Source of the DNA: a virus
IMG/VR virus record: IMGVR_UViG_3300042406_000429
Coordinates: 1 to 64,000 of that record
DNA length: 64,000 nucleotides
Reading direction: 5' to 3' (one strand)
This document shows positions 9,448-19,231 of the stretch, in pieces (within the stretch, counting starts at the first letter, position 1; every line of letters begins with the position of its first letter). Made by a program: the position numbers and the translations under genes. The notes under the pieces are model-generated. The model saw only the letters and a program-made list of their open reading frames with translations, had not been told where the DNA came from and did not search any database.

Positions 9448-9476
9448 TTGAAAACGAAATTCCAAAAGAATAAATA
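9448..9476 (+). promoter_or_regulatory. Candidate promoter for the split tmRNA
   Basis: TTGAAA (9448-9453), 17-bp spacer, TAAATA (9471-9476). Transcription would start near 9482, where the acceptor piece of the tmRNA begins. It is the only candidate seen between the lipoprotein and the tmRNA; read-through from upstream is also possible. Confidence 0.5.
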
Positions 9477-9480
9477 AAGT

Positions 9481-9549
9481 TTGCCGAGGTCGTTGAGACT
9501 TAGCATATAGGTTGGTAAGACAGGGGTGCGAATCCCCTCACCTCCACCA
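9481..9549 (+). ncRNA. ssrA: tmRNA acceptor piece (permuted two-piece ssrA)
   Basis: The 3'-terminal part of a tmRNA, encoded upstream of the coding part. Visible elements: GACTTAGCATATAG (the position of the conserved tmRNA GACTAAGCATGTAG); a T-stem AGGGG/CCCCT (9522-9526 with 9534-9538) with a seven-base loop TGCGAAT; acceptor strand CACCTCC (9539-9545), discriminator A and encoded CCA (9547-9549). The acceptor strand pairs fully with GGGGGTG at 10070-10076, 520 bases downstream, giving seven pairs with a G3-U70 wobble, the alanine identity mark used by tmRNA. GTTGGTAA (9511-9518) can pair with TTATCTAC (10088-10095) as helix P2, with one mismatch. The exact 5' end is uncertain. Confidence 0.93.
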
Positions 9550-9563
9550 TAAACTGATAAAAT

Positions 9564-9598
9564 CCTGTCTATTATAAATAAGTATGATTGACAGGAGG
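9564..9598 (+). promoter_or_regulatory. T4-type late promoter inside a Shine-Dalgarno-sequestering hairpin
   Basis: CCTGTC (9564-9569) pairs with GACAGG (9590-9595), which includes part of the AGGAGG Shine-Dalgarno of the HNH gene. The loop contains a perfect late box TATAAATA (9573-9580). A late transcript would start near 9586 and so lack the 5' arm, leaving the ribosome site free; the tmRNA precursor would keep the hairpin closed. Confidence 0.8.
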
Positions 9599-9603
9599 AT
9601 TAA

Positions 9604-10068
9604 ATGAAACACATACATCATATTGTTCCCAAACATTTAGGCGGAACAGATGAACCAAATAACTTGATAGAACTTACTATTGAAGAACATGCCGAAGCCC
9701 ATAGAGTTTTATATGAAACACATGGTCACTGGCAAGATTTATTGGCTTGGAAAGGTTTGTTAGGTCTTCTTACTTCTGACGAATGCACTTTTATAGCAAT
9801 TCGTGAAGGAGCAAAAAAAGGCGCTGCAATAACCAATGCTATTAGATGGGGAAATGGTAAGAAATCTGCCACTGGTAAATGGATAAGATCAGGCGTTCCT
9901 TCTCCTTATGAAAAAGGAACAGATGGCAGAAAAATTAGAAACAAGAGATATTGGTTCAATGATGGCGTTTCCGAAGGACAGTTCTCTTTAGAGGATTATC
10001 CTAAAGATTGGGTTCGTGGTAGATTAAAATCTGTTATGAAAAAAACGAATCCATATGTCAGTTTATGA
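9604..10068 (+). CDS. HNH homing endonuclease inside the tmRNA intervening segment
   Basis: A 154-residue HNH-family endonuclease. The motif is at the N terminus: HHIVPKHLGG at 5-14, N20-L at the central position, then EEHAEAH at 27-33. The C-terminal half is basic with Gly/Lys-rich DNA-binding segments (WGNGKKSATGKW, KGTDGRKIRNKRYWFNDG), as in other phage HNH homing enzymes. The gene lies between the acceptor and coding pieces of the split tmRNA. Its stop codon (10066-10068) is one base before the mature 5' end of the coding piece. It has its own late promoter and an RBS hairpin. Expected role: DNA cleavage of an allele lacking the gene, leading to homing. Confidence 0.9.
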   Translation: MKHIHHIVPKHLGGTDEPNNLIELTIEEHAEAHRVLYETHGHWQDLLAWKGLLGLLTSDECTFIAIREGAKKGAAITNAIRWGNGKKSATGKWIRSGVPSPYEKGTDGRKIRNKRYWFNDGVSEGQFSLEDYPKDWVRGRLKSVMKKTNPYVSL

Positions 10069-10069
10069 T

Positions 10070-10222
10070 GGGGGTGTATAGGCTCGATTATCTACATTAA
10101 GGCTTCGAGGAGACCAAAGGCGAAACGTAGATGCAAACGATAATGATGCATCATTTGAAGGTTACGCTCTAGCAGCTTAATCCTCATTGGGTTGGCGACT
10201 GACCTAGAAACAGAACAGTCGC
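10070..10222 (+). ncRNA. ssrA: tmRNA coding piece with tag reading frame (permuted two-piece ssrA)
   Basis: The 5'-terminal part of the tmRNA. It starts with acceptor strand GGGGGTG (10070-10076), complementary to 9539-9545 with G3-U70. Next come the D-loop-like GGCTCGA and a region able to form pseudoknot 1. The resume codon is GCA at 10133 and the tag is ANDNDASFEGYALAA, ending in TAA (10178-10180). The bases around resume (GTAGATGCAAACGAT) line up with the E. coli TAGTCGCAAACGAC. A closing hairpin GCGACTG/CAGTCGC (10195-10201 with 10216-10222) probably marks the 3' end. The tag is of the alphaproteobacterial ANDN...ALAA type and ends in the ClpXP-recognised ALAA. Function: rescue of stalled ribosomes with SmpB. 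The RNA needs cleavage, by RNase P at 10069/10070. Confidence 0.94.
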
Positions 10223-10484: not shown

Positions 10485-10561
10485 GGTCCCGTAGCTCAGC
10501 TGGATAGAGCAACAGACTTCTAATCTGTGGGTCGCACGTTCGAATCGTGCCGGGATCGCCA
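10485..10561 (+). tRNA. tRNA-Arg (anticodon TCT)
   Basis: A complete cloverleaf. The acceptor stem is GGTCCCG with CGGGATC (one G-U pair), with a D-arm (GCTCAGCTGGATAGAGC). The anticodon stem-loop CAGACTTCTAATCTG has anticodon TCT; the T-arm is GCACGTTCGAATCGTGC, and CCA (10559-10561) is encoded. It reads AGA codons, heavily used in the tail and fibre genes of this window but much less in gp32 or gp17. Confidence 0.97.
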
Positions 10562-11449: not shown

Positions 11450-11635
11450 ATGGACACAATCAAAGAGACTTATGCATACTCTCATGCTAGCACGGTAATG
11501 TGGTCATTACAACAGGAGTTGAACAGACATAAGGCTCGAAGATTGAACGATAGTCATATACAACAATATCTTGAACGACGAATAGCCGAATTGAAGGAAT
11601 ATGAAAAACAATGCTTAAAAATTCAGGCTTCATAG
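11450..11635 (+). CDS. Unknown small helical protein
   Basis: A 61-residue, charged, probably coiled protein; ATG 11450 has AAGGA upstream. Its end overlaps the gp33-like gene by 25 bases. Confidence 0.55.
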   Translation: MDTIKETYAYSHASTVMWSLQQELNRHKARRLNDSHIQQYLERRIAELKEYEKQCLKIQAS

Positions 11636-11829
11636 AAGAAGTAGAAAAACTCTGTCAAGATAAAAATATTGAATATATTGACGCCGTAGTTTTTTGGTGC
11701 GAGAAAAATAATCTAGAAATAGAGACTGCGGCGTATTGGATACGAAAAGACCCAGTAATGAAGTCTAAGATTCAATTGGAGGCTGAAAACCTTAATGTTC
11801 TGAAACGTGGGGCTAGATTGCCGATATAA
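11611..11829 (+). CDS. 33: gp33-like late transcription co-activator
   Basis: A 72-residue protein. The segment IEYIDAVVFWCEKNNLEIETAAYW, followed by ..IQLEAENLNVLKRG, lines up well with the central region of T4 gp33 (YLEATTAFLEENSIPETQFA..IQSEAIDENLLR), from my memory of the family. gp33 bridges RNA polymerase and the gp45 sliding clamp at late promoters. This protein is shorter than T4 gp33 (112 aa). The C-terminal clamp-binding motif is not obvious, and the end is RGARLPI. Its location beside gp59 and gp32 matches T4 order. The many TATAAATA late promoters in the window need such a factor. Confidence 0.75.
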   Translation: MLKNSGFIEEVEKLCQDKNIEYIDAVVFWCEKNNLEIETAAYWIRKDPVMKSKIQLEAENLNVLKRGARLPI

Positions 11830-12925: not shown

Positions 12926-13501
12926 ATGTCAGCCTTTGAAGCATATAAAGAATACGTGGCTTTAAAAAACCACTTCACCAAAACTGATTACGACTACATT
13001 AAATACAACGGAAAGACAGGTCTGAAACATACTTCTTTCGAGAAGCGTAAGGATAAGATATTCTTTGAAAAACTTGCTAAGAATGAGAATTATCACGAGT
13101 TTCTTGTTGCTAATCTTAGCGATAATCCAAAGTTATGGATACGAGATATTGCATATTCTGAGACCGCCCAATTAACATACCAAAATTGGAAAAAGCGTAA
13201 TCAGTCCCTCACCTACAATTTCAAAAATGATTTTAAGAAAATCCTACAAGAATCAGGAGGGCAGCATCATCCTGCTGCTTTGAGGTTATATCTTGGCAAC
13301 GAGATCAGTTTAGAGTCTCTCTGTGTCTTTATTAAAATGACTAAAGCGATGGCTCAGTGGGACTCTAAACTTGAATACGACCCGATATGGGAAGAAGTCC
13401 GATTGAAGGTTGTGAAATATACTCCATTTATAAAATATGATATTGAGAAAATCAAGCAGGTAATGCTTGACATAATGAGCGATATGGGGTATACTAAATA
13501 A
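12926..13501 (+). CDS. 59: gp59-like helicase loader
   Basis: A 191-residue protein aligned with T4 gp59 (217 aa). The N-terminal DYDYIKYN..., then FEKRKDKIFFEKLAKNENYHEF and NLSDNPKLWIRDI match the T4 segments YDVIKYN, QKRRDKYFFQKL and NLVANQDAWIGDI. gp59 binds fork DNA and gp32 and loads the gp41 replicative helicase. It is followed immediately by gp32. It has no strong Shine-Dalgarno, because the upstream sequence now belongs to the endonuclease promoter region; the displaced start at 12330 suggests that translation signals were lost or rebuilt. Confidence 0.88.
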   Translation: MSAFEAYKEYVALKNHFTKTDYDYIKYNGKTGLKHTSFEKRKDKIFFEKLAKNENYHEFLVANLSDNPKLWIRDIAYSETAQLTYQNWKKRNQSLTYNFKNDFKKILQESGGQHHPAALRLYLGNEISLESLCVFIKMTKAMAQWDSKLEYDPIWEEVRLKVVKYTPFIKYDIEKIKQVMLDIMSDMGYTK

Positions 13502-13527
13502 TGTTGGGTGATACAAATACCCATCAT
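13501..13527 (+). other. Hairpin between gp59 and gp32
   Basis: ATGTTGGGT (13501-13509) pairs with ACCCATCAT (13519-13527) with one mismatch and a nine-base loop. It lies in the gp32 leader. T4 gp32 represses its own translation through a structured leader, so this may be the equivalent; it could also be a weak attenuator. Confidence 0.45.
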
Positions 13528-13561
13528 ACAATTGTCATACACTGTTATACGGAGAATATAC

Positions 13562-14464
13562 ATGGTAGATTTTAAGTCCCTCAAGGCAGCTTCTGGTAAG
13601 AAGTCTCTCGAATCCCTAACATCAGAACTCAATAAGCTATCAGGCGGCGAAGGCAAGGGTGCCGACGATCGCTTCTGGACGCCAACAGTCGATAAGGCTG
13701 GTAATGGTTATGCTGTTATTCGTTTCCTCCCTCCGCCAGCTGGCGAGGATGTTCCCTTCGTTCGTATCTTTGATCATGGTTTCCAGGGTCCGGGCGGATG
13801 GTATATCGAGAACTCACTAACAACTCTTGGTAAGAACGATCCAGTTTCTGAGTATAATTCTAAGCTCTGGAATTCGGGTATTGAAGCTAACAAGGAAATT
13901 GCTCGTAAGCAGAAGCGTCGTCTTCACTTCATCAGCAATATTCATGTTATCAGCGATCCAGGTAATCCTGCCAATGAGGGTAAGGTTTTTCTTTACAAGT
14001 ATGGTAAGAAGATCTTTGATAAGCTCAAGGAAGCAATGGAGCCTCAGTTTGCTGACGAGGAAGCAATCAACCCATTCGATCTTTGGGCAGGTGCACCATT
14101 CAAGCTAAAGATTCGTCAGGTCGAAGGTTATCGTAATTACGATAAGTCAGAGTTTGGTAAGCCAGAGCCTCTGTCTGATAACGATAAGGAACTAGAGCAG
14201 ATCTGGAAGAGTGAGCATTCGCTTAAGGAATTCCTAGATCCTAAGAACTTCAAGTCAGAAGAAGAGCTACGTGCTCGTCTGGCCAAGGTTCTTGCTGAAG
14301 ATTCACCTGCAGCAAAGCGTAAGGCTGCTGAGAATACAGAAGTCCCATGGCAGGAAGAAGATTCTGCTCCGGCATTTAAGGCGACTCATGCGCCGAAGTA
14401 TTCTGGTGATGACGAAGATGACGATGAGTCATTGGAGTTCTTTAAGAAGCTTGCTAATGAATAA
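13562..14464 (+). CDS. 32: gp32-like single-stranded DNA-binding protein
   Basis: A 300-residue protein, almost the same length as T4 gp32 (301). I chose ATG 13562 (MVDFKSLKAASGKK) behind CGGAG. The N terminus has the LAST-type KSLKAASGKKSLE element. The core VPFVRIFDHGFQGPGGWYIE, NEGKVFLYKYGKKIFDKL and KLKIRQVEGYRNYDKSEFG follow T4 gp32 closely, and the C terminus is acidic (GDDEDDDESLEFF). The protein contains no cysteine at all, so the zinc site of T4 gp32 (His64, Cys77, Cys87, Cys90) is missing. Codon use is strongly biased to CGT/AAG, as expected for an abundant protein. Confidence 0.95.
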   Translation: MVDFKSLKAASGKKSLESLTSELNKLSGGEGKGADDRFWTPTVDKAGNGYAVIRFLPPPAGEDVPFVRIFDHGFQGPGGWYIENSLTTLGKNDPVSEYNSKLWNSGIEANKEIARKQKRRLHFISNIHVISDPGNPANEGKVFLYKYGKKIFDKLKEAMEPQFADEEAINPFDLWAGAPFKLKIRQVEGYRNYDKSEFGKPEPLSDNDKELEQIWKSEHSLKEFLDPKNFKSEEELRARLAKVLAEDSPAAKRKAAENTEVPWQEEDSAPAFKATHAPKYSGDDEDDDESLEFFKKLANE

Positions 14465-14497: not shown

Positions 14498-16597
14498 TTA
14501 TCCCCACATGTTCTTTTTGTAATTCTTCATTTCTTTCCAATGATTGCCACCAATCATTTCAGCCCAATCAGGCCAGCCAACATCATATGTGCCATTGTAG
14601 CCGCCAGCACTAACATTGCTGTTGTTATTGACAACTGTAGATGACGAACCAGATTGTTGACCAAATATAGAAGCAAGTATTTCAGATATTGGTTCCTGTT
14701 GCGCAATTTCTTGTTGAACTTGGTTTGATACAGCTGCCTGTTTAAGAGTTTGAGTGTTTTCTGTAGATCTACTCAATTGTTCTAATATTTGTGTACTAGA
14801 TAACTGTTGTGATTGTGGCTGTTCTGCTTGTTGCTGCGGAGCAATTGCTGCAGCTTCGTCTTGAGCTGATTGTAATTGGCCCATCATTGCTGATGCTGCA
14901 GCCGCAGCCATAGGATTCATTCCTGTCATCATCATTGTCATTTGTTCAGGAGTTAATCCTGCGGCTGCTCCTGGCATTGCCTGTGTCATTGCAACTGGAG
15001 TTGCTGTTGGCATCATCGGAGAACTTGATCCTGGAGTTGTTGCTGATGGTTCAGATCCGGGAGTTGTTTGACCGCCAATTATAGATTGACCACCTTTGAT
15101 ACCTTTGCCACCTATTTGAGCGTGAATATGGTTATCGTGACCTTTGGTTCTCCAAAGAACAGTATATCCTGCAGCTTGAATTTGTTTTGCCAATTCATCA
15201 AATCTCTTGCCCCAAACCGGATCACTGGCTTCAGTTATACTACCAGGAGCATTAATATCAATTGCCAACCCATCGTTATGAGCAGAACCAGGATGATGCT
15301 GTTCCGGATGAACGCCATTAAACGCTGGATGTTCTGAAACTCTTATTCCTTGTGCTTGTAGTGCTCTACCTAAAGCAACTATGTCGCCTCCAGGCAATGC
15401 AGGCATTTTACCAATACCAGCTTCTTTTTCATTGTGATTATGTTCCGCAGCGCCACTTATGGGACCATGTCCGTGTTCGCCACCAATTTTCTCAACTCTA
15501 GAAACGCCTTCAGAAGAAACTGGTGGTTGTTCAAACTTAGATTGCATTGGCGAAGATTGTGGAGTTGCTCCACTTTCAGAAGCTCCTTTGGTAGCTCCAG
15601 CCCCACCACCACCAACAATCGCTTTTTCTACAGCTGCAACATTCCCTGCTCTTTTTGATGCTTCTCCAGCTTGATCTCTTGGTTTTTCAAATTTATAAAC
15701 AAATTGAGCAGCCGCTTCTTGGCCGCTAGAAACTGGAGTTTTTAAATAAGATTTCATTTCGCCTTCGGTCAGAGCGTAATCAATTTGCCCTTTCCAATTT
15801 TTCTGCCAGTCAGGTCCAGCTGCTCTAGTCATGTCAGTGAATCTATGTTCACCAGTTCTTAAATTATCATGATGTTGGAACAAACCGCCAGATGGACCAT
15901 TAACGTCGTTGCGATTATATGCGCCTGAATTAAATTTTGATTCATTTTGTATATTAGCTAACATTCCTACAGCGTGTTCGTGGTCTATACCTTTTTCTTT
16001 AGTCAGGTAGCTATATATGTCCTTTGCCATAACAGGATTGCTTACCTGTTTGACTCCGCCACCAGCGCCGCCGAGACCTCCACCAGCGCCGCCAGCACCA
16101 CCTCCAGTCATAAAGTCCATTGCAGTTTTACCCGCACCAAAAGCCAAACCTCCCATAGCCAATGCACCAATACCTTTAACTATGGACATAGCTGTTCCGC
16201 TAAGACCAGTTAATAATCCTGGTAATAGACTTTGTCCAATTGAAGATTGAAGGTCTTGATTTAGGCGAAATATACTATTATCAACGTTTGCTATTCCTCT
16301 GGCCATATTTTTTATGCCAGTAGCCATATCATGTATGCCAGAATTTATGTCTTGAAGTTCAGATTGAATTGCTTGTAATGTAGAAGAATTTCTTTCAGAT
16401 ACACTTTCGTTTTCCTGCATAACATTTTGAAGATCATTAAGATCCTGTCGCTGTGCCTTAATAGCAGCAGCAATAGTTCCCATAATCTTAGATAAATTAG
16501 CATTTCCTCTTTCCGCAGCTTCTCTGAATTGTCCAGCGGAATCTCCCATCGCTGAACGAATTGTGCCTGAGAGTTGCGAAAGTTCTGCTTGTTCCAT
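14498..16597 (-). CDS. Tail protein with lysozyme and M15-like peptidase domains (possible tape measure)
   Basis: A 699-residue protein. In order: a helical, coiled N terminus (about 1-115); a hydrophobic, Gly-rich segment (120-182); a phage tail lysozyme domain (192-320) with the catalytic-type ANIQNESKFN (E219); a His-rich linker; an M15-type zinc peptidase domain (403-495) with H440, D447 and H490/H492 (GSAHNDGLAIDIN, then HDNHIH); and a long Gln/Ser/Ala-rich tail. Both enzymes would cut peptidoglycan. The hydrophobic segment and the position after the hub gene and a small ORF fit a tape measure injected into the envelope. The T4 tape measure gp29 is 590 aa; no other candidate is seen here. 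Last gene of the minus-strand operon. Confidence 0.8.
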   Translation of the reverse strand: MEQAELSQLSGTIRSAMGDSAGQFREAAERGNANLSKIMGTIAAAIKAQRQDLNDLQNVMQENESVSERNSSTLQAIQSELQDINSGIHDMATGIKNMARGIANVDNSIFRLNQDLQSSIGQSLLPGLLTGLSGTAMSIVKGIGALAMGGLAFGAGKTAMDFMTGGGAGGAGGGLGGAGGGVKQVSNPVMAKDIYSYLTKEKGIDHEHAVGMLANIQNESKFNSGAYNRNDVNGPSGGLFQHHDNLRTGEHRFTDMTRAAGPDWQKNWKGQIDYALTEGEMKSYLKTPVSSGQEAAAQFVYKFEKPRDQAGEASKRAGNVAAVEKAIVGGGGAGATKGASESGATPQSSPMQSKFEQPPVSSEGVSRVEKIGGEHGHGPISGAAEHNHNEKEAGIGKMPALPGGDIVALGRALQAQGIRVSEHPAFNGVHPEQHHPGSAHNDGLAIDINAPGSITEASDPVWGKRFDELAKQIQAAGYTVLWRTKGHDNHIHAQIGGKGIKGGQSIIGGQTTPGSEPSATTPGSSSPMMPTATPVAMTQAMPGAAAGLTPEQMTMMMTGMNPMAAAAASAMMGQLQSAQDEAAAIAPQQQAEQPQSQQLSSTQILEQLSRSTENTQTLKQAAVSNQVQQEIAQQEPISEILASIFGQQSGSSSTVVNNNSNVSAGGYNGTYDVGWPDWAEMIGGNHWKEMKNYKKNMWG

Positions 16598-16777
16598 TTA
16601 TTTGCTCTTATTTTTGAGTTCTTCTACTTCTTTAAGATAATCAACTAACATCTGAACATAGATATCTCTTTCAAATGGCATAAGGTGTTCAATATCACTA
16701 ATTGAATATTTATGGTGCTGGGCCAATGAAAATATCGTTGAGAAATAGTTACCCAACGAATTATGACTCAGCGCCAT
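16598..16777 (-). CDS. Small ORF in gp51/tail-chaperone position
   Basis: A 59-residue, probably helical protein (MALSHNSLGNYF...PFERDIYVQMLVDYLKEVEEL). It overlaps the end of the gp26-like gene by ten bases and ends directly before the tape-measure-like gene. A small hub assembly factor (gp51) or tape measure chaperone is expected at this place; the similarity is only positional. Confidence 0.6.
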   Translation of the reverse strand: MALSHNSLGNYFSTIFSLAQHHKYSISDIEHLMPFERDIYVQMLVDYLKEVEELKNKSK

Positions 16778-17481
16778 GTAAAAAAATCGTTTAACGAATT
16801 CAAAACGATCTCTCGTTTTGTCCCTGCTGTATTTTCATACTTAATTACATATTCGATCTTAGGAATATTAAGTAAAAACTTCTGAATTTCTTCAAAAACC
16901 TTAATATTGAGGTTTTCTAGAAAGTCTACTAGATCCTGTTTTTTATAATCGCTTGCTTTATAGATCTGATCTTCATAATAAATTGAATCGATACAACGAA
17001 CTATGAGCTCAAATATGTAATCTTTCTCTAAACTCAAAAATTCTTTGTCGTCATACAGTTTTGCAGAAGGATATTTCATAACAATACCCGATTTATCGGT
17101 GATTTTTATGTTATTAATAATTTTTTCAGGAAAATTTACTTCAATTTTATTGAGATCGATCTCAAAATCGTATGTTTTATCGTCTTCAGAATCTTTGTAT
17201 GAAACTTTTACGATATTATCCACTGAAATTGACCTTAATTTGAGAAAAATATACTCAAGATCAAAGAGCGCCAGCTTATCAATGTCAAATTTAGAATCAA
17301 TAGAACAATTATTGATGATTTGTTTGATTGCTGAGAGAATATCCGTTGCCTGTTCACTTTCTTTAGCCATTAATAACAGTTTTTCTTCTTTAACTAAGAA
17401 AGGTCTAAACTGAAATTCCTTTTTCAAGGAAGGAACATTTACTCTATAAACTGGATAATCAATTTTAGGCAATGATGACAT
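16768..17481 (-). CDS. 26: gp26-like baseplate hub protein
   Basis: A 237-residue protein of the T4 gp26 baseplate family. It begins SLPKIDYPVYRVNVPSLKK followed by FQFRPFLVKEEKLLLMA, the conserved entry block of that family. T4 gp26 is 208 aa. It takes part in assembling the central hub. It lies in the same operon as gp54-like, gp2 and gp4. Confidence 0.8.
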   Translation of the reverse strand: MSSLPKIDYPVYRVNVPSLKKEFQFRPFLVKEEKLLLMAKESEQATDILSAIKQIINNCSIDSKFDIDKLALFDLEYIFLKLRSISVDNIVKVSYKDSEDDKTYDFEIDLNKIEVNFPEKIINNIKITDKSGIVMKYPSAKLYDDKEFLSLEKDYIFELIVRCIDSIYYEDQIYKASDYKKQDLVDFLENLNIKVFEEIQKFLLNIPKIEYVIKYENTAGTKREIVLNSLNDFFTWR

Positions 17482-17499
17482 ATTAAAACTCCATTATGA

Positions 17500-18192
17500 T
17501 TAAAATATTGATTGTGATGATCCCACACCAACACCTATAGTTTCTCGTTCTTTTGCTGTTGATAGTCCACCTGGTTGCGATCTGGTTCTTAAAATTGATG
17601 AACCCTCAATTGTATATTCAGTATAAGCTAAAGAAACATTAATTCTCATCAAATTACCATCACCCCATGAAAGCGGTATTTCTCTTAATGCACTCGGAAA
17701 CGCTTCAAATAAGTTAATTTTCTGAATTGAGTTTCCATAATGATCGTAAATTACAATTACTATTGTTGATGAATACTGATCTTTGTATTCAGCTGTATAT
17801 GTTGGCGCTTGACCTGTAGAAGTTCCACTATACTGGAAAATAGATCTAGTCCATTGATACCAATATTGCCAAAATTCGCAAAAATGATCACCAATCATAG
17901 AAATATTAGTTTCTTGATATTGGGCGTTTGTTGGTTTCTTTTGAGTTGGACCTATACCGTAATGATTGATGTCTGAAGAAATAAGAGAAATACCAGGAGC
18001 TCTGACTTGATCAACTCTGAAAGACATATTTTCAGATATTTGTTTTAACGAAACAGGAGTGCCCTGATTGCCCAAAGCACCACCGTTTTGCGTCATAACT
18101 GGTGGTGTTTGAACAAATACCTCAAAAGAATTATTATCTAGGTATCCGAAATCTCTTATATTAGTTGAAAACTTGTTTATGTTAAAAGCCAT
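17500..18192 (-). CDS. 54: Baseplate tail-tube initiator (gp54-like)
   Basis: A 230-residue protein with a tail-tube-type fold signature: ENMSFRVDQVRAPGISL near residue 54 and INLFEAFPSALREIPLSWGD followed by LMRINVSLAYTEYTI in the C-terminal half. T4 gp54 (320 aa) caps the baseplate and starts tube growth together with gp48; the gp48-like gene is at 19285. The gp54 label is tentative because tube, gp48 and gp54 share a fold. Confidence 0.65.
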   Translation of the reverse strand: MAFNINKFSTNIRDFGYLDNNSFEVFVQTPPVMTQNGGALGNQGTPVSLKQISENMSFRVDQVRAPGISLISSDINHYGIGPTQKKPTNAQYQETNISMIGDHFCEFWQYWYQWTRSIFQYSGTSTGQAPTYTAEYKDQYSSTIVIVIYDHYGNSIQKINLFEAFPSALREIPLSWGDGNLMRINVSLAYTEYTIEGSSILRTRSQPGGLSTAKERETIGVGVGSSQSIF

Positions 18193-18200
18193 TTTAGTCC

Positions 18201-18776
18201 CTAGTAAGGTGGTGAACCAGCATATCTTTTATTTGAGTTTATTTTCCATCTATGAATTGGCAACACAGCAGCCTTTTCCCAATTAGACGGGTCAACTTCA
18301 TGAAACGAACTTCTAACATGACTATAAAGATATCTCTTTATACACCCATCAACGCCTTTAAAGACGTTTGAATAACCTCTTAAAATTTCATAAGACAAAC
18401 TAAGCCTTTTATTCATTTTATATTTATTTTCGTCAGTAAATTCTACTAAAGAGTTTAATAACCTGACTCTGGCCAATGCCGGAAGATAATGTAGGTTGAT
18501 ACCCAAAAATCCGTCTATATACATCTCAACGGGCATAGTTAATGGATACATATCGTAAAAAGGAAGGGTGGCTTTGTATTTTGGATCATACAAATAAAGG
18601 TACATTCCTCCAATTTGAGGCAATGACATCTTTTTAAAATATTTGTTTGGTTCTGCTTTGGTCTTATTTGATTTTAAATCTTCGACAGAATCATTGAACC
18701 AATCCTCAGCTGAAAGAGATTTGTCAGCTAAAGCTCGGGCAGAGGCTCTTAGAAGGTCATTGAACGTATTTGGCAT
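18201..18776 (-). CDS. 2: gp2-like DNA end protector / head completion protein
   Basis: A 191-residue protein. The conserved block IGGMYLYLYDPKYKATLPFYDMYPL followed by GFLGINLHYLPALARVRLLN and a CIKRYLYSHVRSSF segment is one I associate with T4 gp2-type proteins. It is shorter than T4 gp2 (274 aa). The order gp2-gp4 next to gp53 is the T4 order. gp2 protects packaged DNA ends against RecBCD on ejection. The start codon overlaps the gp4 stop. Confidence 0.75.
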   Translation of the reverse strand: MPNTFNDLLRASARALADKSLSAEDWFNDSVEDLKSNKTKAEPNKYFKKMSLPQIGGMYLYLYDPKYKATLPFYDMYPLTMPVEMYIDGFLGINLHYLPALARVRLLNSLVEFTDENKYKMNKRLSLSYEILRGYSNVFKGVDGCIKRYLYSHVRSSFHEVDPSNWEKAAVLPIHRWKINSNKRYAGSPPY

Positions 18777-19231
18777 TAATAACCTTTCGGTAATCCTAGT
18801 TCGTTTTCTGTCATTATTATGAATTCAAATCCTCTATCTTTGCAGTATTCACGAGCAGCTTTCCATTTGGCTGAATTTACACCCCAAGTCATAACTTCAT
18901 TAACATATTTTCGACTTTTCTTTTTGCTTTCAGTAATAGTTGGCGGCTGCGTTTGCTTGAAGGGTTTTACCTCTATGAGCACAGTTCTAGTCCCGCCTCC
19001 AGGCTTATTCATTTTTGCAGTAAAATCCACATAATAGCGATGTATTCTATTATCAACTGGCGATCTATATGGTATTATAGTCTCCTCTGAAGACCACCAT
19101 ATTATGTTAGGGTCAATATCAAATCGACTCATTACTAATAATTCCCATCGAGAACGATAAATAATGTTGGTTGGATCGCCTTTGTATTTTTGAGGATTCC
19201 TTGGTTTAAAATAACCTTGATACTTAGCCAT
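18776..19231 (-). CDS. 4: gp4-like head completion protein
   Basis: A 151-residue protein, same length as T4 gp4 (gp50/65). It matches through YxGDPTNIIYRSRWE, IIWWSSEETIIPY, RYYVDFTAKM, VLIEVKPFKQTQPP and the MNEVMTWGVNSAKWKAA-type segment. The fold resembles a nuclease with an E-x-K core (IEVKP). It helps finish DNA-filled heads before tail joining. First gene of the leftward operon. Confidence 0.92.
   Translation of the reverse strand: MAKYQGYFKPRNPQKYKGDPTNIIYRSRWELLVMSRFDIDPNIIWWSSEETIIPYRSPVDNRIHRYYVDFTAKMNKPGGGTRTVLIEVKPFKQTQPPTITESKKKSRKYVNEVMTWGVNSAKWKAAREYCKDRGFEFIIMTENELGLPKGY

Follow-up and report, generated by a model that had tools for sequence, protein, structure and literature searches.

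Homing endonucleases usually persist in self-splicing introns, in inteins, or between genes. In the T4-like phage contig analysed here, an HNH homing-endonuclease-like gene occupies the intervening segment (IVS) of a circularly permuted tmRNA gene, the spacer between the two pieces of the RNA. It is probable that this spacer, discarded when the RNA matures, is a niche of the kind an intron offers, with no splicing involved, and that it houses a homing endonuclease dedicated to tmRNA genes; cleavage, homing and RNA processing are steps that we infer. Phage two-piece tmRNAs (PMC9004378, available in part) and endonuclease genes in tmRNA group I introns (PMC11915505, available in part) were already known. 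What is new is a dedicated HNH lineage in the discarded tmRNA spacer, with a late promoter and leader in the style of T4. The window, meaning the whole stretch of 64,000 nucleotides that was analysed, comprises bases 1-64000 of a 112,276-base IMG/VR virus record, and the contig carries homologues of terminase, baseplate, gp32, gp59, gp33 and gp55.

Together, the pieces at 9482-9549 and 10070-10222 make up a tmRNA gene in circularly permuted order (Table 1), which belongs to the already published class of phage two-piece tmRNAs. An earlier note, made from the letters alone, had proposed such a phage-encoded gene and named an Rfam covariance-model search as a check. That search, a cmscan of the whole window, bears the proposal out: RF04321 (tmRNA_permuted) matches at 9488-10180 on the plus strand with 52.8 bits against a gathering score of 47 (E 1.8e-7, model positions 1-213), spanning an insert of ~520 nt. 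The T-arm (AGGGG/CCCCT with the loop TGCGAAT, 9522-9538) is followed by the 3' acceptor strand CACCTCC (9539-9545), which pairs at 7 of 7 positions with GGGGGTG (10070-10076); the acceptor stem has G3-U70, A73 is present, and CCA is encoded at 9547-9549. The resume codon GCA stands at 10133, and the tag ANDNDASFEGYALAA, ending in ALAA, runs to the stop TAA at 10178-10180. The placing of the pieces, the sevenfold pairing, G3-U70 and the tag frame up to its stop had all been read correctly in the note. It had the two pieces right and missed what lies between them, a nuclease ORF of 154 codons in a 520-nt spacer. The 5' end of the acceptor piece (9482) was set from the promoter, a one-letter variant (AATAAATA) of the T4-type late octamer TATAAATA lying ~80 nt before the CCA end, and the 3' end of the coding piece (10222) is an estimate. 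The ends of the IVS can pair with each other, TAAACTGA (9550-9557) with TCAGTTTA (10058-10065).

Table 1. Features of the tmRNA locus and its neighbourhood, in window positions
Feature	Positions	Strand	Basis or content
AATAAATA, variant of the T4-type late promoter octamer TATAAATA	9469..9476	+	Upstream of acceptor piece; sequence
tmRNA acceptor piece	9482..9549	+	RF04321; P2 strand, T-arm, CACCTCC, A73, CCA
Intervening segment (IVS), 520 nt	9550..10069	+	Removal by tRNA-type processing expected
Nuclease leader	9564..9603	+	Inverted repeat, late promoter, Shine-Dalgarno
HNH homing-endonuclease-like gene, 154 aa	9604..10068	+	PHROG 655, Pfam HNH, AlphaFold2, clade
tmRNA coding piece	10070..10222	+	RF04321; GGGGGTG, D-arm, resume codon, tag, 3' hairpin
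tRNA-Arg (TCT)	10485..10561	+	Downstream neighbour; ARAGORN and Rfam
gp33-like late-transcription coactivator	11611..11829	+	phrog_254, E 3.9e-15
gp59-like helicase loader	12926..13501	+	phrog_269, E 8.6e-51
gp32-like single-strand DNA-binding protein	13508..14464	+	phrog_224, E 1.7e-113

Genes of this kind can be missed. ARAGORN, run on the window, found no tmRNA and reported the downstream tRNA-Arg only, and a family-based genome search returned 10020-10180 alone, with 28.3 bits and under the cut-off; the long insert is presumably the cause in both cases. Co-folded alone, the two tmRNA pieces reach -66.4 as compared with -60.8 +/- 5.1 for shuffles, about 1 SD lower and not significant. The spacer protein is 100% identical in five other contigs (L122-L126, the last of them partial), where the flanks, as printed, are also the same. 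A gene for SmpB was looked for and not found on the 112-kb contig, itself possibly a fragment; the roles that the note had offered for the RNA, in tagging, in recycling or in place of the host RNA, are candidates. The nearest isolates by terminase, phiM12 and phiN3, gave no tmRNA_permuted match. Just past the plus-strand genes for gp59 and gp32 there is a minus-strand block (14498-19231), which contains a gene for a 699-aa protein (14498-16597) with ~95 residues matching tape measure proteins (phrog_13339, E 4e-9).

A tag pattern searched in IMG/VR gave at least 120 stretches. The permuted layout was found in 106 of these, some of which could be mis-assigned because the detector also matched 29 of 951 letter-permuted 7-mers and 14 of 106 loci on the other strand; the standard layout was found in none, and 14 gave no layout, several of these lying close to the end of a contig. 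As the 120 are a lower bound, the ratio is not a prevalence. All 106 permuted loci have G3-U70, and with so many alike the layout in the window is not a matter of chance. Their IVSs are 8-520 nt long, shorter than 120 nt in 85 of 106, and end in TGAT in 81. The stem that closes the IVS has a mean of 10.4 bp in the 76 distinct survey IVSs of at least 45 nt and of 9.4 bp in 20 IVSs with an HNH gene, as compared with ~5 bp (about 4.95-5.0) when ends are re-paired among loci. The T-loop is of a GGC type (mostly GGCAGTA or GGCGGTA) in 63 of the 106 loci, where the usual type is T-x-C. The sequence reached far enough upstream in 100 of the permuted phage tmRNAs, and 57 of these have an exact TATAAATA 45-140 nt before the CCA end, clustering at 73-80 nt; random windows have it in 38 of 2000 cases. 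The contig of the window itself encodes late factors like gp33 and gp55. We infer that many of the surveyed phage tmRNAs are late transcripts. For the tmRNA of phage Melnitz, early expression has been proposed instead (PMC9004378, available in part).

Melnitz is one of the known cases of a phage two-piece tmRNA, and the same source counts, in the part available, 402 phages in a phage database with 133 unique tmRNA structures, 53 "of these" two-piece (PMC9004378). Permuted tmRNAs above the Rfam cut-off are also present in Pelagibacter phage HTVC008M (NC_020484, 145161-145370, with a gene for a putative late promoter transcription factor downstream of it) and in Sinorhizobium phage Phosso (PV764938, 349596-350198); both are unannotated in the parts of the two records that were looked at. 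The tags of Melnitz and Phosso start with ANDN and end with ALAA, and the Melnitz tmRNA, like that of the window, has the genes for a late-transcription coactivator and a helicase loader downstream of it (PMC9004378, available in part). The IVSs of Melnitz and Phosso, 142 and 410 nt long, have no HNH ORF, whereas the 520 nt of the window hold a homing-endonuclease-like gene. Melnitz also bears on the reading of the tmRNA as good evidence on the host, which the earlier note had offered: according to the available part of PMC9004378, this phage infects Methylophilales and yet has an alphaproteobacterial-type tmRNA, so the type of tmRNA is weak evidence on the host.

The nuclease gene fits tightly into the spacer. 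One base lies between its TGA and G1 of the coding piece, and its last codons supply the 3' half of the stem that closes the IVS. The 154-aa protein matches the homing endonuclease family PHROG 655 (phrog_655) over residues 2-51 (E 6.8e-14), and Pfam HNH at E 3.7e-4 with 21.0 bits, 0.4 bit under the cut-off of 21.4; the same Pfam model matches 31 of 31 aligned proteins at E <= 0.01. Across these 31 proteins, H5, H6, N20, H29 and H33 are invariant. An AlphaFold2 model based on the 31 sequences (mean pLDDT 85) has a predicted beta-beta-alpha N-terminus, with strands at 3-6 and 21-24 and then a helix at 26-40. A sequence profile search of the PDB gave a maturase at E 1.1e-4 and Cas8f-HNH fusions at a best E of 1.1e-3. 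Foldseek against the PDB gave nothing at E <= 0.001; its short alignments include Cas8f-HNH with 39 columns at 0.7 A and a non-significant E of 2.7. The gene is under purifying selection, with pN of 0.07-0.23 and pS of 0.54-0.79 in 10 of 10 HNH pairs. A group I intron in the spacer was considered and rejected, as a cmscan of the whole window with all Rfam families gave tRNA and tmRNA_permuted alone at the gathering score.

The arrangement recurs. A profile of four IVS nucleases was used to collect relatives, and the best 80 of 483 together with 8 of another 27 loci make up a set of 88 loci with 69 distinct proteins. Within this set, 20 of the 69 distinct HNH relatives (31 of the 88 loci), all on metagenomic phage contigs, lie in a tmRNA IVS. 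The occupied IVSs are 464-642 nt long and their flanking pieces pair at 7 of 7 positions, which was a condition of the search; in displaced windows the IVS detector responded once in 444. In a tree of the 69 proteins the 20 IVS nucleases and one further protein, L163, form a single clade with support of 94/84, the value of 94 being just below the customary 95. The IVS label changes twice on this tree, as compared with a mean of 17.6 when labels are shuffled, and none of 500 shuffles was as low. L163, on a contig shared with L127, is one of the 49 proteins of the 69 that are not in an IVS, and lies just upstream of a tmRNA with a short IVS of its own. A closing stem of at least 6 bp is found in 17 of the 20 occupied IVSs, and in 15 of those it has at least 9 bp. 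Acceptor strands starting with GGGC are commoner where there is an insert (8 of 20 vs 6 of 103, p 2e-4, a post hoc comparison). Outside metagenomic phages, a profile scan of bacterial contigs gave 158 pattern matches with one weak relative (L318), for which the IVS detector gave no tmRNA. In isolated phages, tblastn with the nuclease gave 69 records; among the 40 listed, six span 80% or more of the query, at 29-34% identity. At the nuclease relatives of the isolates S-SKS1 and S-SRM01, the two loci looked at, the IVS detector was negative.

The nuclease ORF ends at an offset of +1 to the coding piece in 12 of the 20 loci and of +12 in one, and the offset is negative in seven. In these seven (L129, L186, L177, L189, L188, L195 and L173) the ORF overlaps the coding piece by 7-40 nt, so that the same bases specify the protein and the acceptor strand and D-arm of the tmRNA, and ribosomes could collide with the folding of the tmRNA.

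The leader of the nuclease gene may serve a control of the kind described for T4. In the window, CCTGTC (9564-9569) can pair with GACAGG (9590-9595), which overlaps the Shine-Dalgarno sequence AGGAGG (9593-9598), and an exact late promoter TATAAATA is found at 9573-9580. By T4 spacing, transcription from it would presumably start near 9586, and a transcript with this start would exclude the 5' arm CCTGTC. Among the 20 leaders, 13 have the exact TATAAATA, and two, 10-11 nt long, have no promoter and no hairpin; every one of the 18 leaders that reach 40 nt has TAAATA. In 11 of these 18 a perfect inverted repeat is longer than in letter shuffles (p <= 0.05), and the 6-bp repeat of the window itself has p 0.09. 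The mean predicted probability that the Shine-Dalgarno site is unpaired is 0.22 for the full leader, 0.76 for the late transcript and 0.49 when the 5' part is shuffled. In all 15 assessable leaders the predicted accessibility is lower for the full leader than for the late transcript, and in 14 of the 15 it is also lower than with the shuffled 5' part; three of the 18 leaders were left out, as the site chosen in them precedes the predicted start, and the chosen site is weak in L181 and L188. A leader fold that hides the Shine-Dalgarno sequence is thus a prediction of these folding models.

Leaders may also resemble the D-arm in their own coding piece, as would an operator. This is the case in 6 of 18 at p <= 0.035, with a mean score of 7.86 vs 5.92 for shuffled leaders and 7.18 for cross-locus pairs, a likeness that is only suggestive because it was tested after having been noticed. 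The leader of the window has no resemblance to its own tmRNA D-arm (p 0.57).

Very similar control is on record for I-TevI, I-TevII and I-TevIII of T4, for segB and for mobE of Aeh1, where a structure hides the ribosome-binding site and a late (or middle) promoter adjoins it, as predicted here (PMC2988022, available in part). In the same source, the 3' end of the I-TevI ORF contributes to the structure of the host RNA, much as the 3' end of the window ORF lies in the IVS stem, and td splicing falls when the I-TevI hairpin is lost. A like requirement would apply in the tmRNA IVS, since the last ORF codons form the stem adjoining the acceptor stem. The hosts differ: the endonuclease genes of T4 and Aeh1 either stand free or are carried by an intron in a protein gene, whereas that of the window lies in the spacer of a structural RNA in which no intron was found, and removal of this spacer by tRNA-type processing, as we would expect it, sets it further apart. 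The nrdA gene of Aeh1, a gene in pieces, is a further comparison.

Standard tmRNA genes offer a second comparison. As far as the available part of PMC11915505 goes, 36 of 883 tmRNA group I intron forms have a homing endonuclease gene, LAGLIDADG was searched for and is present in 23 of the first 844, and the introns sit in the T-loop. The likeness is that of a homing endonuclease gene within a tmRNA gene; the differences are that the window has an HNH protein, a permuted gene, a phage and no intron. The available part of this source also describes, as single cases, a permuted tmRNA IVS holding a tRNA-Ala and one holding a repetitive element, with no protein gene mentioned; they share with the window a foreign sequence that is tolerated in the IVS. 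An endonuclease gene in a permuted IVS is not mentioned in that part, and in the literature covered, thinly so for subscription journals, we came upon no account of a homing endonuclease that occupies the spacer of a permuted tmRNA.

Other proteins are encoded in such spacers too. Of the 19 distinct IVSs that reach 120 nt, 14 have an ORF whose length exceeds that in letter shuffles (p <= 0.05), the nuclease being one of the 14. Five loci (L038, L063, L085, L088 and L105) have a conserved membrane-like protein of 38-44 aa (MKNPLV...WSICAD...) that stops 1 base before the coding piece, with fewer nonsynonymous than synonymous changes in 10 of 10 pairs. ORFs of 43-120 aa ending 7-17 nt before the coding piece are found in L031 (IVS of 499 nt), L033, L040, L005 and L016. 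The Melnitz IVS (L152, MZ577097) has an unannotated small ORF with the motif KIPKYLSG, which is also found in the small IVS ORF of L031.

Relatives with and without the insert exist. Two contigs (L241 and L242) have a gp32, the marker used for finding empty-site relatives, that is 94% identical at the amino acid level to that of the window, and a tmRNA with an IVS of 130 nt; in a third (L248) gp32 is 87% identical and the IVS has 86 nt. No nuclease match was found by tblastn (E 0.01) in the stretches of 11.6-13.0 kb from these three, so both occupied and empty tmRNA alleles are present among relatives. Their coding pieces are 73-80% identical to that of the window and the entire IVS differs, and for this reason neither a clean point of insertion nor tracts of co-conversion can be traced. 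In the clade, gp32 was looked for in 18 contigs besides the window's own phage (L129, L183 and L186 were left out); overall it was found in 16 of 22 contigs, namely 12 of these 18, the three empty-site relatives and one copy of the window phage. In these 12 clade contigs gp32 always follows the nuclease gene on its strand at a distance of 1.5-5.5 kb, making the locus constant, and is 54-72% identical to that of the window. The two proteins do not always keep step: L164 has 75% identity to the window for HNH and 54% for gp32, and L180 has 47% and 69%. The overall correlation is not significant (Spearman -0.46, p 0.15, n=11, L176 being omitted as partial), and gp32 may itself recombine. Judged from these sequences, the nuclease is likely to be mobile.

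We would explain these observations as follows. The IVS of a T4-like phage's permuted tmRNA would have been taken over by an HNH homing endonuclease gene, giving a precursor in the order acceptor piece, IVS, coding piece, in which the tracts at the IVS ends would pair beside the acceptor stem. RNase P would cut at G1 of the coding piece and RNase Z or exonucleases would act at the CCA, and the IVS would be discarded; an insert removed by tRNA-type maturation should cost the tmRNA little. Such processing would thus play here the part that self-splicing plays for endonucleases borne by introns. In transcripts begun upstream, the leader structure would conceal the ribosome-binding site of the nuclease, and as its late promoter lies within this structure, late transcripts would free the site. 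The nuclease would cut insert-free tmRNA genes of co-infecting phages, and repair would copy the insert in. What carries this explanation at the level of sequence is the anatomy of the locus, recurrence in one clade, purifying selection, relatives free of the insert, and the promoter boxes in the leaders.

It is conceivable, if unlikely, that a free-standing HNH gene was passively trapped, with a nuclease not aimed at tmRNA and an IVS that is merely tolerant. Unrelated small ORFs in other phage tmRNA IVSs, such as the five with the membrane-like protein, indicate that the IVS tolerates cargo generally, and none of the HNH relatives beyond the clade turned up in an IVS (nor did 49 of the 69 proteins altogether, L163 included). 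Trapping would predict scattered sites, however, and all 21 clade members adjoin a permuted tmRNA, in phages whose gp32, in the 12 contigs that yielded one, has no more than 54-72% identity to that of the window. A single ancestral entry into the IVS, followed by vertical descent with many losses, would make the nuclease a domesticated late gene and not a mobile one. The single clade, the shared offset from ORF end to coding piece in 12 of 20 loci and the constant gp32 locus (12 of 12) are what vertical descent would yield as well, and the discordance of HNH and gp32 lacks statistical significance; against it stand the identities that fall out of rank in L164 and L180 and the relatives with 94% identical gp32 that have no nuclease gene, and we regard it as quite improbable.

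Least of all do we believe in a tmRNA that is decayed or misassembled, interrupted by an insertion and non-functional. The thermodynamic signal of the pieces alone is weak and 520 nt is far beyond the usual IVS, which would fit decay, but acceptor stem, G3-U70, T-arm, D-arm, resume codon and the ALAA end of the tag are all intact, the same gene is found in other contigs, and some 20 occupied lineages keep the acceptor stem (by condition of the search) and mostly the closing stem (17 of 20 with at least 6 bp). The probable reading thus remains the niche without splicing. A wider version of it joins the intron-like IVS and the tmRNA-targeting nuclease lineage with operator mimicry, a shared niche and a message loop, and taken as a whole this is a tentative proposal that may well fail in one part or another. 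In it the nuclease possibly recognises a sequence of the D-arm, of which its own promoter region would be a mimic, in the manner of the I-TevI operator; unrelated small phage proteins would share the IVS niche, and one transcript would give both tmRNA and mRNA. Since the ORF often ends 1 base before the RNase P site, a released message would end right after the stop codon; it could become a substrate of the tmRNA, a possible self-limiting loop.

It is worth noting that tmRNAs with long spacers, overlooked by ARAGORN and split up by the family search, may leave phage ribosome-rescue RNAs under-counted. Occupancy by a nuclease would give the spacer of permuted RNA genes a use, and the niche reading predicts that insert-free tmRNA genes are cut. 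A gene-in-pieces RNA that is matured by ordinary tRNA enzymes would protect an endonuclease equally well, without a ribozyme.
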